From: Hymenobacter sp. CRA2
Lineage (GTDB): Bacteria > Bacteroidota > Bacteroidia > Cytophagales > Hymenobacteraceae
DNA: 64,000 nucleotides
NCBI RefSeq assembly: GCF_002007105.1
Contig: NZ_MVBC01000016.1
Span: 1 to 64,000 of the forward strand
Direction of reading: 5' to 3'
The notes under the pieces were generated by a model. It was given only the letters and a program-made list of their open reading frames with translations, was not told the origin of the DNA and searched no databases. The translations under genes were made by a program, and so were the position numbers. Position 1 is the first letter of the stretch; every line of letters starts with the position of its first letter. Below, in pieces: positions 15,527 to 63,773 of the stretch.

Positions 15527-15608
15527 CTGGAGAGAGTTCAGGGCCGAAGGCTGAGTAGCTAGCTCCCGGCGTTCTGCAACTGGTTTCAGTTCTAACTTCT
15601 AACGTCTC
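15527..15608 (+). repeat. ccmB-ccmC spacer with pyrimidine-word arm
   Basis: This spacer starts with GAGAGAGTTCAGG and ends, directly before the ccmC ATG, with pyrimidine-rich words (TTCTAACTTCTAACGTCTC). Pairing of the two ends is only partial, so I treat it as a weak or decayed member of the purine/pyrimidine stem-loops described for 17061, 26445, 34025 and 62919. Confidence 0.35.
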
Positions 15609-26436: not shown

Positions 26437-26444
26437 CAGTTGGA

Positions 26445-26513
26445 GAGTTAAAGAGGGTAGGAGTTTACGAGTTGTCGTGCTGATGACTCCTAAACTTCTA
26501 CCCTCTTCCACTC
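26445..26513 (+). repeat. long stem-loop between iscX and kdsC
   Basis: Positions 26445-26472 (starting GAGTTAAAGAGGGTAGGAGT) pair with 26486-26513 at 24 of 28 positions around a 13-nt loop. More pyrimidine words (CTCCCAAACTCCCAGACTCG, then TTAACTCCTAACC) continue to 26543, just before the kdsC start at 26556, and could offer alternative pairing with the left arm. Confidence 0.8.
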
Positions 26514-26555
26514 CCAAACTCCCAGACTCGTTAACTCCTAACCTTGATAGAGCCC

Positions 26556-34014: not shown

Positions 34015-34024
34015 AAATGAGAGG

Positions 34025-34089
34025 TGAGACATGAGAAGTGAGATGGATGCCCCGCGCGGCCGGGCGTCAGTCTTACTTCTCATGTCTCA
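34025..34089 (+). repeat. stem-loop between mreB and mreC (19-bp arms)
   Basis: TGAGACATGAGAAGTGAGA (34025-34043) pairs with 34071-34089 at 18 of 19 positions; the odd pair can form G-U in RNA. The 27-nt loop is GC-rich. Further words (GAGGTGAGA on the left, TTTTCTCATGTCTCC on the right to 34104) extend the pairing loosely. The mreC ATG is at 34111. Confidence 0.85.
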
Positions 34090-34110
34090 TTTTCTCATGT
34101 CTCCACCGCC

Positions 34111-59514: not shown

Positions 59515-60414
59515 TTAGCCTTTCACCGCCTTGGCGGCCACCTGCTCGGCGGCGTGGATGCGGGCGAAATACACGTCTTCCAAGGTGGGCTCGACGCCCT
59601 CAAAGCCGTTGCCGGGCTGGGCCAGGCTGTGCACGTGGATGATGGTCTGCCCGGCAAACAGGCGCGAGGAAATCACCGAAAACTGCTGCTGGTAGCTCTC
59701 CAGCTCCTGCTTGGCAATGGTGCGCCGCCAGATCTGCCCGCGCATCTCCTCGATGGCGCGCAGCGGGTCGCCGGTGTAGAGCACCTGCCCCTTGTTGATG
59801 ATGGCGAACTGCCGGCACAGGTCCGACACGTCCGACACGATGTGCGTGCTCAGAATCACGATGCGGTCCTCGCCGATTTCGGCCAGCAGGTTGTGGAAGC
59901 GGTTGCGCTCCGTCGGGTCGAGGCCGGCCGTGGGTTCGTCCACGATGATCAGGCGCGGGTTGCCTAGCAGGGCCTGCGCAATACCGAAGCGCTGCTTCAT
60001 GCCGCCGGAGTAGCCGCCCAGGTTCTTGTTGCGCACGTTGTAGAGGTTGGTCTGCTGCAGCAGCGCGTCGACCACCTGTTTCCGTTCGCCCTTGTTGCTG
60101 ATGCCCTTGAGCACGGCAAAGTGGTCGAGCAGCTCGGCGGCCGTCACCTTGGGGTACACGCCGAATTCCTGGGGCAGGTAGCCCAGCACTTGGCGCACCC
60201 GCTCGGGCTGGCGCAGCACGTCGATGTCGCCCAGCTGAATCGAGCCCGCGTCGGCCTCTTGCAAGGTGGAAATCGTGCGCATCAACGAGGATTTGCCAGC
60301 GCCGTTGGGGCCCAGCAGTCCAAACATACCCGGCTCGATGCGCAACGAGACGTCGTTGAGGGCCTTGGTGCCGTTCGGGTAGGTCTTGGAAAGGTGTTCG
60401 ATGACCAGTTCCAT
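59515..60414 (-). CDS. ABC transporter ATP-binding protein, partner of the permease/M1 fusion
   Basis: 299 residues. Walker A GPNGAGKS (35-42), the signature YSGGMKQR and Walker B LIIVDEPTAGLD are all present, with the ABC-2 type regulatory C-terminal tail. It energises the permease encoded at 55701. Transcribed first, then the fusion gene follows past the repeat element. It is divergent from the LytS/LytTR pair, whose regulator may control it. Confidence 0.93.
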   Translation of the reverse strand: MELVIEHLSKTYPNGTKALNDVSLRIEPGMFGLLGPNGAGKSSLMRTISTLQEADAGSIQLGDIDVLRQPERVRQVLGYLPQEFGVYPKVTAAELLDHFAVLKGISNKGERKQVVDALLQQTNLYNVRNKNLGGYSGGMKQRFGIAQALLGNPRLIIVDEPTAGLDPTERNRFHNLLAEIGEDRIVILSTHIVSDVSDLCRQFAIINKGQVLYTGDPLRAIEEMRGQIWRRTIAKQELESYQQQFSVISSRLFAGQTIIHVHSLAQPGNGFEGVEPTLEDVYFARIHAAEQVAAKAVKG

Positions 60415-60816: not shown

Positions 60817-62112
60817 ATGGCCGAATTTCTGAGGCGAGGAGCCCACCAACTAGCTGCCTGGTGGCTGCGGCCGGCTGCCCCGCAAGCGGTGCCCGTAGGC
60901 ATCCACGTACTGCTGTGGGCGCTGCTGCTGGGGGCCAACCTGCTTCGGCTCAGCATCAAGTGGCTGGCCGAGGGGGCTGACACGTGGTCGTGGCCGCTGA
61001 TGCTGGCCGACCTGGCCGCTACCGTTGCCACCTACGCTTTGCTGTTTTACTTCACTTGGCTGGTGCTGGTGCCGCGCCACCTCAACCGGCAGAAGCCCGT
61101 GCGCTTTCTGCTGGTGGTGCTGCTGACGGTGATAGTCACCGCCATGGTGCGCTTCACCACCAATATCGGGCTGGGCCTGATGCCCTCCATGTGGCCGGCG
61201 CACGTGGAGGGGCCGCCCCCGCCCACCGGTTCGGTAACCGATTCGTTTTTGGCGGGCCTGCGCGCCGGTTACCGCCAAGGCTACAAATCGGCTTCGAGGG
61301 CGCAAGAATCAATGGGTGCCGACAAAACCACCGGCAAGAACATCGTGCCGGCCACACTGCTCATTATGCTACTGGGCATCTACCTGCGCCTCGGCAACGA
61401 CCACCAGCACGAGAAGCGCCGCCGCCGACAGGCCGAACGCGAGCGGCAGGAGCTGGAAAAGCAGCACCTCGCGGCCGAGTTGTCGCTGCTGAAAGCGCAG
61501 ATCAACCCGCATTTCCTCTTCAACACGCTCAACAACATCTACTCCCTGGCCACGGCCCACGACGTGGAGGCGCCCGCCGCCACGGCCGTGCTGCAGCTGG
61601 CCGACCTGATGCGCTACCTGCTCTACGAATCGGCCACCGATACCGTACCGCTGCGCAAGGAAATCGAGCACCTACGCAACTTCCTGAGCCTGCACCTGCT
61701 GCGCCTGCCCGGCGCGGGGCCCGAGCGGCTGCGCTTTGAGGTGGCCCCGGAGCTGGCCGAGGCCAACCTGCCCGTGGCGCCCATGCTGCTGCTGCCGCTG
61801 GTGGAAAACGCCTTCAAGCACGGCGACCTGACGGCTCGCCCCCACGCCGTGGAGCTGGAACTGACCCAAAACGGCGCTGAGCTGGTATTTTCGGTGCAGA
61901 ACCGGCGCCGCGCGCCGCGCCCCGGGCCGCCGCAGCCCGGGGGCGTGGGCCTGAGCAACCTGCGCCGCCGCCTGCACTTGCTGTATCCCTCGCGCTACGG
62001 CCTGCACATCGAGGAGACGGCCGACTATTACCGCGCCACGCTTACGCTGGTGCTCACGCCGGCTGGCGCTGCCCCGCTGCCGCTGCCCGCTGCCCAACTT
62101 GCTGCCGTTTAG
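60817..62112 (+). CDS. LytS/YehU-type sensor histidine kinase
   Basis: 431 residues. Four membrane helices in the first 190 residues, then a coiled stretch (EKRRRRQAERERQELEKQHLAAELSLLK) and the His_kinase domain with H232 in INPHFLFNTLNNIYSLA. The ATPase domain has LVENAFKHG and GVGLSNLRRRLHLLYP. It should phosphorylate the LytTR regulator encoded next; the sensed signal is unknown. It is divergent from the ABC operon. Confidence 0.92.
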   Translation: MAEFLRRGAHQLAAWWLRPAAPQAVPVGIHVLLWALLLGANLLRLSIKWLAEGADTWSWPLMLADLAATVATYALLFYFTWLVLVPRHLNRQKPVRFLLVVLLTVIVTAMVRFTTNIGLGLMPSMWPAHVEGPPPPTGSVTDSFLAGLRAGYRQGYKSASRAQESMGADKTTGKNIVPATLLIMLLGIYLRLGNDHQHEKRRRRQAERERQELEKQHLAAELSLLKAQINPHFLFNTLNNIYSLATAHDVEAPAATAVLQLADLMRYLLYESATDTVPLRKEIEHLRNFLSLHLLRLPGAGPERLRFEVAPELAEANLPVAPMLLLPLVENAFKHGDLTARPHAVELELTQNGAELVFSVQNRRRAPRPGPPQPGGVGLSNLRRRLHLLYPSRYGLHIEETADYYRATLTLVLTPAGAAPLPLPAAQLAAV

Positions 62113-62125
62113 CCCCGCCGCTGTT

Positions 62126-62914
62126 ATGGAATCCACACCCGCCCCGCCTACCCGCATCCTCACCTGCGTTGCCGTCGACGACGAGCCGCTGGCCACGGCC
62201 GTGATGCAGCGCTACTGCGCCCAGCTGCCGTTTCTGCAGCTGGTGGCCACTTTCCACGACGCCATGTCGGCCTTGTCCTTTCTGCAGGCCACGCCGGTCG
62301 ACGTGGTCTTCCTCGACATCGAAATGCCAGGCCTCACCGGCATGCAGCTGGCCCAGATTCTGCCGCCCGGCCGCACGCGCGTGGTGCTCACCACCGCCTA
62401 CGACCAGTACGCCGTGCAGGGCTACGAGCTGGGCGTGGCCGATTACCTGCTCAAGCCTATCGGGTTTCAGCGCTTCGTGCAGGCTGCCAACCGGCTGTAC
62501 CACAGCTTCCAGACCGAAACCGCGGCCCCGGCTCCGCCAGCACCCGGCCCGAGTGCCGCTGCAGCTACCGACGCCGCCCCGCCGGTAGCCGCCGATGCCA
62601 TGTTCGTCAAGAACGAGCACCGGCTGCAGCGCGTCGCCTTCGACGACATTCTGTACATCGAAGGCATGAAGGATTACCTGATGATTTACACCGCCGAGAG
62701 CGGCAAAATCCTCACGCTGCAGTCCTTTCGGCGAGTAGAGGAGGTGCTACCGCCGCAGCGTTTCGTGCGCATCCACAAGTCTTTTCTGGTGGCGCTGAAC
62801 CGCATCGAGCACGTGGAGCGCGGCCGCGTGCAGATAGCCGGCCGCCTGCTGCCCGTCGGCGACGCCTACCGCGACGCGTTTATGGCCTTGATCCGGGCCT
62901 ACAACCAGCTGTAA
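62126..62914 (+). CDS. LytTR-family response regulator
   Basis: 262 residues from MESTPAPPTRILTCVAVDDEP. The receiver domain has Asp64 in VFLDIEMPGLTG and a Lys in DYLLKPIGFQRF near residue 115. After an Ala/Pro linker, the LytTR DNA-binding domain covers about 160-262 (FVKNEHRLQRVAFDDILYIEGMKDYLMIYT, RFVRIHKSFLVALNRIEHVERG). It follows the kinase gene by 13 nt. By position its likely targets are the divergent ABC operon and its own promoter. Confidence 0.93.
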   Translation: MESTPAPPTRILTCVAVDDEPLATAVMQRYCAQLPFLQLVATFHDAMSALSFLQATPVDVVFLDIEMPGLTGMQLAQILPPGRTRVVLTTAYDQYAVQGYELGVADYLLKPIGFQRFVQAANRLYHSFQTETAAPAPPAPGPSAAAATDAAPPVAADAMFVKNEHRLQRVAFDDILYIEGMKDYLMIYTAESGKILTLQSFRRVEEVLPPQRFVRIHKSFLVALNRIEHVERGRVQIAGRLLPVGDAYRDAFMALIRAYNQL

Positions 62915-62918
62915 TGAT

Positions 62919-62997
62919 GAGACAAGAGTAGGGAGAGGTGAGAAATGAGACGACGTTCTGCGAAGTCTCGTTTCTCACCTCTCCCTACTCTTGTCTC
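62919..62997. repeat. 33-bp stem-loop between convergent genes
   Basis: GAGACAAGAGTAGGGAGAGG and the next 13 bases (62919-62951) pair with 62965-62997 at 32 of 33 positions around a 13-nt loop. It starts 4 nt after the LytTR gene stop and is followed by TAAAAAAAGC, 9 nt before the stop of the minus-strand gene at 63007. The arm words match those at 34025. It may work as a bidirectional terminator. Confidence 0.9.
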
Positions 62998-63006
62998 TAA
63001 AAAAAG

Positions 63007-63585
63007 CTACTTCAGCTCCACACTCTGCATGATGGCCTGGGCCACGGGCTGGTACTGCGCCTGCTCCTCCACCGGGCTGATGAAATGAAACACGTACTGC
63101 TGCCCGCCCTCGATGGCGTACTGCATCAGCTCGTAGCGGCGTAGCGGGGCCATCATTTCGCGGCCGCGGCGGGTGTCGCCCAGCGTCGAGACGAACTCCA
63201 GCACGATGAAGTCGCGCTTGTTGATGGTCTTGATGTCGTGGGTGAGGATGTCGACCTTGGTGTAGGTGCTCTTCAGCTTCGACTCGTAAATCTTCAGCAG
63301 CAGGGCGTAGTCCTGGTTGGTGAAGGTGGTGGGGCGGGCGGCAATGCTGTAATCGATGCGGCCGGCGGGGTTGCTGAACACAGCCAGCGGCTTGCGAGCC
63401 GCCGGGTACTTGGTGGCAATGGCGTCGTCGGGCAACGGCTGAAAGTCGGCCGGTACGCCTACGGTGAGGTTTTTGGCGACGTCCACCTTTTTCAGCTTGG
63501 GCGGGGCAAAGGCAGTCAGCAGCCACACCAGCGGCAGCAAGGCCAGGGCGCGGCGTAGCACGGAGAAACGGAATGCAGGGTTCAT
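63007..63585 (-). CDS. small secreted protein of unknown function
   Basis: 192 residues from MNPAFRFSVLRRALALLPLVWLLTAFAPP, a signal or membrane anchor. The rest is a mixed alpha/beta domain (KKVDVAKNLTVGVPADFQPLPDDAIATKYPAARKPLAVFSNPAGRIDYSI, YVFHFISPVEEQAQYQPVAQAIMQSVELK) in the style of small lipid- or stress-related proteins; no family recognised. A Met 9 nt upstream is an alternative start. Convergent with the LytTR gene. Confidence 0.6.
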   Translation of the reverse strand: MNPAFRFSVLRRALALLPLVWLLTAFAPPKLKKVDVAKNLTVGVPADFQPLPDDAIATKYPAARKPLAVFSNPAGRIDYSIAARPTTFTNQDYALLLKIYESKLKSTYTKVDILTHDIKTINKRDFIVLEFVSTLGDTRRGREMMAPLRRYELMQYAIEGGQQYVFHFISPVEEQAQYQPVAQAIMQSVELK

Positions 63586-63668
63586 GGCAATCATCGGCGG
63601 CAAAGTAACGCAGTCCGGCATGGGAAAATTTCAGGGTGGGACAGGCCTGCTGCAAGGACAAAAAAGAG

Positions 63669-63773
63669 CGTCATGCTGGGCCCGGCCGAAGCATCTCTAC
63701 GGATAGTAATCTGCTGGTTGAGATTAGTATCAGGCGAAGCGGGAGAGATGCTTCGGCCGGGCCCGGCATGACG
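63669..63773. repeat. 30-bp inverted-repeat element (CGTCATGCTGGGCC ... GGCATGACG)
   Basis: CGTCATGCTGGGCCCGGCCG and the next 10 bases (63669-63698) pair with 63744-63773 at 29 of 30 positions. The 45-nt centre contains a second pair (GATAGTAATCT with AGATTAGTATC, 10 of 11). The ends (GTCATGCTG, GAAGCATCTC) match the 59367 element. It fills the gap between two minus-strand genes. Confidence 0.85.

Follow-up and report, generated by a model that had tools for sequence, protein, structure and literature searches.

Described systems that come closest to the locus reported here include several kinds of repeat. The CGTC-type REPs are short, dispersed, intergenic palindromes from Bacteroidetes among other phyla; each family has its consensus sequence, the stems measure 8–9 bp and a CGTC tag is left unpaired (Di Nocera et al., 2013, PMC3733652). 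The Correia/NEMIS, ERIC and YPAL elements are units of approximately 100–200 bp whose transcripts form long stem-loops; these families are recognizable by sequence, and several carry terminal repeats and target duplications (review PMC2229807). According to the same review, NEMIS RNA is a proposed target of RNase III, and ERIC is co-transcribed with its neighbours and has been linked to the stability of the upstream mRNA. Finally, the TAACTGA heptamer forms intergenic 7-nt direct repeats, also in five Bacteroidetes, in arrays of one exact heptamer that often lie near start codons (MacGregor, 2015, PMC4679880).

Here we describe a long stem at position 62919 of a 64,000-nucleotide stretch of Hymenobacter sp. 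CRA2 (contig NZ_MVBC01000016.1, positions 1 to 64,000; hereafter the window), and the family of elements to which it belongs. Typically, such an element begins a few nucleotides downstream of a stop codon and ends a few short of the next start codon, or of the next stop where the genes converge; degenerate C-poor words of 7 nt, less commonly 8 nt, follow one another along its 5′ arm, its 3′ arm is their G-poor complement, and pairing is kept while the words change or are replaced. A description of such a word-built stem-loop family was not found among the best-ranked matches in the literature. We propose, with moderate confidence, that the 62919 stem belongs to a family of stem-loops, dispersed and quick to turn over, that are transcribed between cistrons and at 3′ ends and act as RNA structure. 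Membership of the family is well supported, and from placement and covariation we infer that such stems may act as double-stranded RNA, both between cistrons and where genes end.

The initial annotation had reported a near-perfect 33-bp stem at this site, and this is borne out: the two 33-nt arms are complementary at 32 of 33 positions around a 13-nt loop (Table 1). The one exception, T62946/G62970, makes a G-U wobble in a plus-strand transcript, which can therefore pair at 33/33. The surrounding 141 nt (62890–63030) fold at −75.6 kcal/mol, whereas shuffled versions average −34.05 (z −10.96) and none of 200 folded as well; the stem scores 30, compared with best scores of 10–15 in 20 Markov-1 random sequences of 64 kb. 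The left arm had also been characterized as almost purely purine; it is 85% purine with two C, and ‘C-poor’ fits the family better, as related arms also carry T. Two simple identities were tried and rejected: a known RNA family, as Rfam 15 gave no match at gathering score anywhere in the 64-kb window, and a recent copy of one mobile repeat, as there is no close second copy, the closest other place in the genome matching at 85% over 39 bp.

Table 1. Positions of the 62919 stem, its flanking genes, a sister element and an octad-word stem within the window.
Feature	Position	Strand	Basis or remark
Octad-word stem	26438..26520	+	Between IscX-like Fe-S assembly gene and HAD hydrolase gene
mreB–mreC spacer, sister element	34015..34110	+	Gene calls, Pfam MreB and MreC
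LytTR response regulator	62099..62914	+	PF00072, PF04397; stop codon ends 4 nt before stem
5′ (C-poor) arm	62919..62951	+	With 62917–62918, heptads ATGAGAC, AAGAGTA, GGGAGAG, GTGAGAA, ATGAGAC
13-nt loop	62952..62964	+	Stem search
3′ (G-poor) arm	62965..62997	+	Complementary to 5′ arm at 32/33
A7 tract after stem	62999..63005	+	Sequence
Convergent gene without Pfam match	63007..63621	−	Stop codon 9 nt beyond 62919 stem

The stem lies in the spacer between two convergent genes, the second of which is present in all eight genus genomes compared (own included). Three of the seven congeners have the same two genes with a GC-rich hairpin between them, A/T-flanked in two, and one has a REP-like palindrome in the same spacer; in the other three, the left neighbour of the convergent gene differs, the spacer is not the same one, and an 11-bp GC-rich hairpin is found there. 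It had been asked whether relatives share this spacer as an identical, conserved terminator, and these observations rule that out. As to gene order, the histidine kinase and LytTR genes (window 60817–62914) do not adjoin the convergent gene in G004, G005 and G007, where, judged by eye, the ABC-transporter gene (window 59515–60414) adjoins it directly. Beyond the convergent gene, before the next one, the window holds a CGTC-type REP-like palindrome (63669–63773) with 30-nt arms, 97% complementary, and a 45-nt loop; related palindromes occupy the same place in G003, G006 and G001.

The vocabulary of the 62919 stem recurs elsewhere in the window. As had been noted from the letters, it is held in common with the mreB–mreC element, whose left arm also consists of RTGAGAN heptads (ATGAGAG, GTGAGAC, ATGAGAA and GTGAGAT, facing their own complement). 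The stem at 26438 is built of octads instead, read by eye as GTTGGAGA, GTTAAAGA, GGGTAGGA and GTTTACGA. At 15527–15608, towards a start codon, lies a heptad array with one arm only, G-poor when read in the sense of the mRNA; no second array there exceeds the threshold.

A hairpin census covering 1.73 Mb of the 5.88-Mb genome (arms of at least 14 nt, score of at least 13, loop of at most 70) yielded 272 hairpins; shuffles, reversed patterns and other hairpins of the same genome served as controls. The 5′ arm is strongly G-over-C, that is C-poor, in 26 of them, and a 7–9-nt period is found in 18 of these 26, compared with 13 of 242 balanced hairpins and none of four C-rich ones (Fisher 5e-14); at p < 0.05 the period is 8 nt in nine stems, 7 in seven and 9 in two. 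As to placement, 23 of the 26 lie between codirectional genes, two in convergent spacers and one at the edge of a gene in a spacer between divergent genes, and the codirectional share exceeds that of the balanced hairpins (107/242; Fisher 1.4e-5). Leaving out one short stem (C11:35316) gives a word-stem set of 25, of which the 22 codirectional members start a median of 7.5 nt after the stop codon and end a median of 21 nt before the next start; the spacer remainder outside the stem is 40 nt or less in 18 of these 22, compared with nine of 98 other codirectional hairpins. A scan blind to pairing found 112 periodic C-poor 30-mers in 90 spacers, versus eight in shuffled spacers, and where arrays occur on both strands (21 spacers) the order is C-poor arm then G-poor arm in 21/21. 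Codirectional spacers with arrays on one strand divide into 41 antisense, like the array at 15527–15608, and 11 sense. With up to two mismatches, the degenerate heptad pattern RTGAGANRTGAGANRTGAGA has 50 matches in this genome, compared with five for the reversed pattern. The suggested search for similar structures elsewhere in the genome thus finds them in number, and the proposed membership of a stem-loop family is supported, with C-poor heptads and octads as its words and most members between codirectional genes.

That these stems are ordinary factor-independent terminators, merely long and in the case of 62919 bidirectional, is very improbable. GC-rich hairpins do occupy the 62919 spacer in congeners, as seen above, and words give way to a GC-rich hairpin at two other sites, A/T-flanked at C11:590433 (G004, G005 and G007) and, by eye, at C11:536206 (G006). 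Yet no U-tract follows the 62919 stem on either strand (both tails inspected), and a T-run of at least four at the 3′ foot is found in 3/24 word stems (the divergent one omitted), the corresponding figures being 6/19 for REPs and 113/212 for other hairpins. A terminator scan called nothing at 62919, a result to be read with the permitted loop sizes of 3–8 in mind, under which a 13-nt loop is hardly callable. Most members, moreover, lie within tightly packed codirectional gene pairs. A further candidate, arrays of stop codons in all frames, was also set aside: nine of the 26 5′ arms have stops in three frames, as against a shuffled mean of 1.7, start and stop triplets being C-free and frequent in such words.

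Copying between loci occurs, as some stems have long parts in common, loops included: the stem at C22:382157 matches the mreB–mreC element at 87.5% over 72 bp, and C22:64480 matches C11:541002 at 79% over 102 bp. This bears on a second reading, which we consider somewhat unlikely, namely that these are small palindromes of a selfish kind, akin to REPs or MITEs, which multiply through copying and which the host tolerates since a folded hairpin does little harm inside an operon, although they have no function for it. Dispersed copies that extend through the loop are what such elements would leave, and matches of at least 60 nt at 85% or better are not rarer among word stems (2/25) than among REPs, separated from them by CGTCAT-type words (0/19). 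One word has, furthermore, expanded in this genome, the 50 pattern matches here comparing with 0–11 in each of seven congeners, and REPs and word stems share the mreB–mreC spacer in different species. The copies of most word stems are nevertheless weaker and fewer than those of REPs, the best non-self match reaching 60 bits in three of 25 word stems but in 13 of 19 REPs (C40:189664 being in both sets). A common consensus palindrome with a GTAG or CGTC end tag is absent among the word stems.

The arms of the family have a fixed polarity, with a C-poor arm facing a G-poor one. In the two tenths nearest the start codon, GC skew is −0.33 and −0.40 for 281 codirectional array-free spacers of 60–140 nt, and it is −0.27 in the tenth adjoining the start codon in 225 divergent array-free spacers. 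Since G is avoided just upstream of starts, a stem that ends there needs a G-poor 3′ arm and therefore a C-poor 5′ arm, and the polarity of the word stems is probably set in this way in this genome. This argument does not apply to the convergent members, 62919 included, whose words may have been copied from words formed elsewhere. Two further thoughts are offered purely as ideas: that a C-rich, G-poor 3′ arm is concealed from Rho by the stem, and that the elements originated from telomere-like arrays fused head to head, the C-poor strand reading inward from both edges.

The mreB–mreC spacer allows the family to be followed across the genus. We compared 81 spacers, that of the window and 80 loci among the matches listed (78 Hymenobacter, one Solirubrum and one Cytophagales MAG). 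Among these, 78 are at least 40 nt long and the other three 7–14 nt; 76 of the 78 have a strong fold (z < −3; median −9.5), and the spacers of L322 and L305 have no fold below z −3. As the three shortest leave no room for a hairpin and these two lack a strong fold, the stem is dispensable there. The content of the 78 longer spacers comprises 12 word types or REPs, with REP-like sequence in 27. Of the 51 others, 45 contain an ungapped stem (14 nt or longer), with the 5′ arm G over C in 42 of these 45 and a period in 39; the REP spacers contain a stem in 25 of 27 and a period in none. The dialects include RTGAGAN, AATGGYTR, AATTAAR, AGCTAGR, AGTTATG, AATGAAG, CAATGAR and CATTTAA. The last has a C-rich 5′ arm and is found in three related species; in L313, L318 and L328 (H. 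nivis, H. coccineus and H. caeli) the polarity is reversed, with CATTTAA words in the 5′ arm. In six loci (L134 and L137, from G115 and G107, L285, L286, L298 and L335) REP hairpins are, by eye, nested in the loop of word arms.

Content switches rapidly in this spacer. A single quick tree built from the flanking genes, in which 22 of the 78 inner branches are open, requires no fewer than 31 changes of content for the 78 rows and 26 for the 50 word-type rows (shuffled labels, 32–38), and one sister pair whose flanking genes are 96.5% identical carries different dialects; there is thus some inheritance together with fast switching. Within the smaller set of genomes, in four congeners the mreB–mreC element is in the octad dialect (AATGGYTR) in two and in heptads in two, and at C11:592293 seven of eight genomes have an ungapped stem with changing words, while G001 has words without such a stem.

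For a wider view of turnover we set spacers of our genome against those of G006 (259 tried, 98 pairable, 13 with word stems). The 13 word spacers have a median identity of 0.65 (shuffled, 0.60) between flanks that are 89% identical, compared with 0.77 (shuffled, 0.62) between 85% identical flanks for 51 other codirectional spacers, and the description of the stem as ‘rapidly rearranging’ therefore holds for the family. Nine of the word spacers are codirectional; their G006 counterparts have a word stem in six (two by eye), in a different dialect in three (by eye), and no stem in three by the ungapped test. Across the spacers compared, content is mostly replaced from near the stop to near the start, no clean empty site was seen, and congeners have, in the same spacers, stems of another dialect, GC-rich hairpins or REPs, or lack a stem. 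Reuse of the same slot by another dialect (3/9, dialects by eye, against a background of 1/59; p 0.006) also counts against selfish spread. As a tentative extension of the RNA-structure reading, Hymenobacter operons might possess ‘hairpin slots’: positions at which a long RNA stem would be kept genus-wide, its filler interchangeable among 7- and 8-nt word dialects and REPs and refilled wholesale, with both arms written from short words.

In 11 of the 12 heptad-labelled mreB–mreC spacers (L307 omitted), changes on both sides occur in 12 of 27 pairs, compared with 6.7 after shuffling, and the covariation score was reached by none of 500 shuffles; 94.3% of cells are paired, versus 85.3% shuffled and at most 56% when slid, though kinship can inflate covariation. 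Covarying arms, too, are not what selfish spread would lead one to expect. Mispairs on the sense strand of word stems are G-U in 49 cases and A-C in 22 (p 0.0018; species counted separately, the window mreB–mreC element counted twice), but G-U also outnumbers A-C in REPs (22 versus 14) and in other codirectional hairpins (19 versus 9). An excess common to hairpins generally could fit RNA hairpins at large, or a strand-biased mutation such as deamination.

A process at the DNA level might produce paired change with no selection at all, if slippage made tandem words of 7–8 nt and template switching in hairpins copied one arm onto the other. The paired changes between G003 and G006 at C11:592293 include, judged by eye, double changes at neighbouring positions of each arm, as such copying would produce, and the period in the 39 periodic mreB–mreC stems is 7 nt in 35 and 8 in four across many different words; plain direct heptad arrays, moreover, exist in other Bacteroidia. 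We nonetheless regard this by-product explanation as improbable, as it predicts neither the codirectional placement (23/26), nor the filling of the spacer (18/22), nor the fixed polarity.

The words themselves are present in other families of the class too. With up to one mismatch, the heptad pattern is found in 40 of 150 genomes of a family sample and 55 of 247 of a class sample (our genome being in both), with up to 280 matches per genome and controls near zero in most genomes. Some genomes have plain direct heptad arrays, or word arms around a REP. Three genomes of one neighbouring genus (G097, G107 and G115) have 280, 138 and 124 RTGAGAN matches, some of them plain direct arrays, of which at least one (L138) seems to follow a stop codon immediately. 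In a few genomes it is the reversed control pattern that abounds, with 181 matches in G150 and 79 in G208, which seem to use another C-poor heptad word.

If the 62919 stem and its relatives act as RNA structure, as we favour, a transcribed hairpin would fold the spacer away and give the upstream mRNA a double-stranded 3′ end, which would block 3′-to-5′ decay and may be a cut site for RNase III, with the result that mRNA levels could differ between neighbouring cistrons. Members inside operons would separate cistrons, for example mreB and mreC, and both convergent mRNAs would end in the 62919 stem, in a place that a GC-rich hairpin or a REP takes in congeners. Point mutation alone would not account for the replacement of words, which would be copied from other elements or grown anew. 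The shape of an intergenic hairpin persists across many species while its sequence is replaced, and this opens two questions to testing: does selection act on intercistronic hairpins as RNA whatever their sequence, and by what means does a bacterium write both arms of a hairpin anew from 7-nt words? Hairpin slots, if real, would constitute a regulatory layer of structure without sequence that scans for conserved sequence miss; finders based on U-tracts or on a consensus will likewise miss such elements.

Set beside known systems, the word stems resemble intrinsic terminators in being hairpins that follow a stop codon, in spacers whose orthologues can hold a GC-rich hairpin instead, but differ in that a U-tract is rare, the stem is far longer and most lie within codirectional gene pairs. 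Like the CGTC-type REPs as outlined above (PMC3733652), they are short, dispersed, intergenic palindromes, and CGTC-like REPs take their place in the mreB–mreC spacers of many species; unlike those REPs, they have arms from 14 nt (the search floor) to about 37 nt, no common consensus, a 7–8-nt period and a C-poor-arm-first polarity. Stems of G003 and G006 contain a word similar in appearance to TAACTGA, namely GTTGTCA… (with CAACTGA/TAACTAG as its complement), but in contrast to the arrays described by MacGregor (PMC4679880) the units of word stems are degenerate and the arms are inverted into a hairpin. MITEs are marked by terminal inverted repeats of fixed sequence and by target-site duplications; the word stems have inverted arms whose sequence is not fixed. 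Word hairpins may be cut by RNase III, of which NEMIS RNA is a proposed target; unlike the NEMIS, ERIC and YPAL families as that review presents them (PMC2229807), however, they conserve their shape, while their sequence is often replaced from one species to the next.
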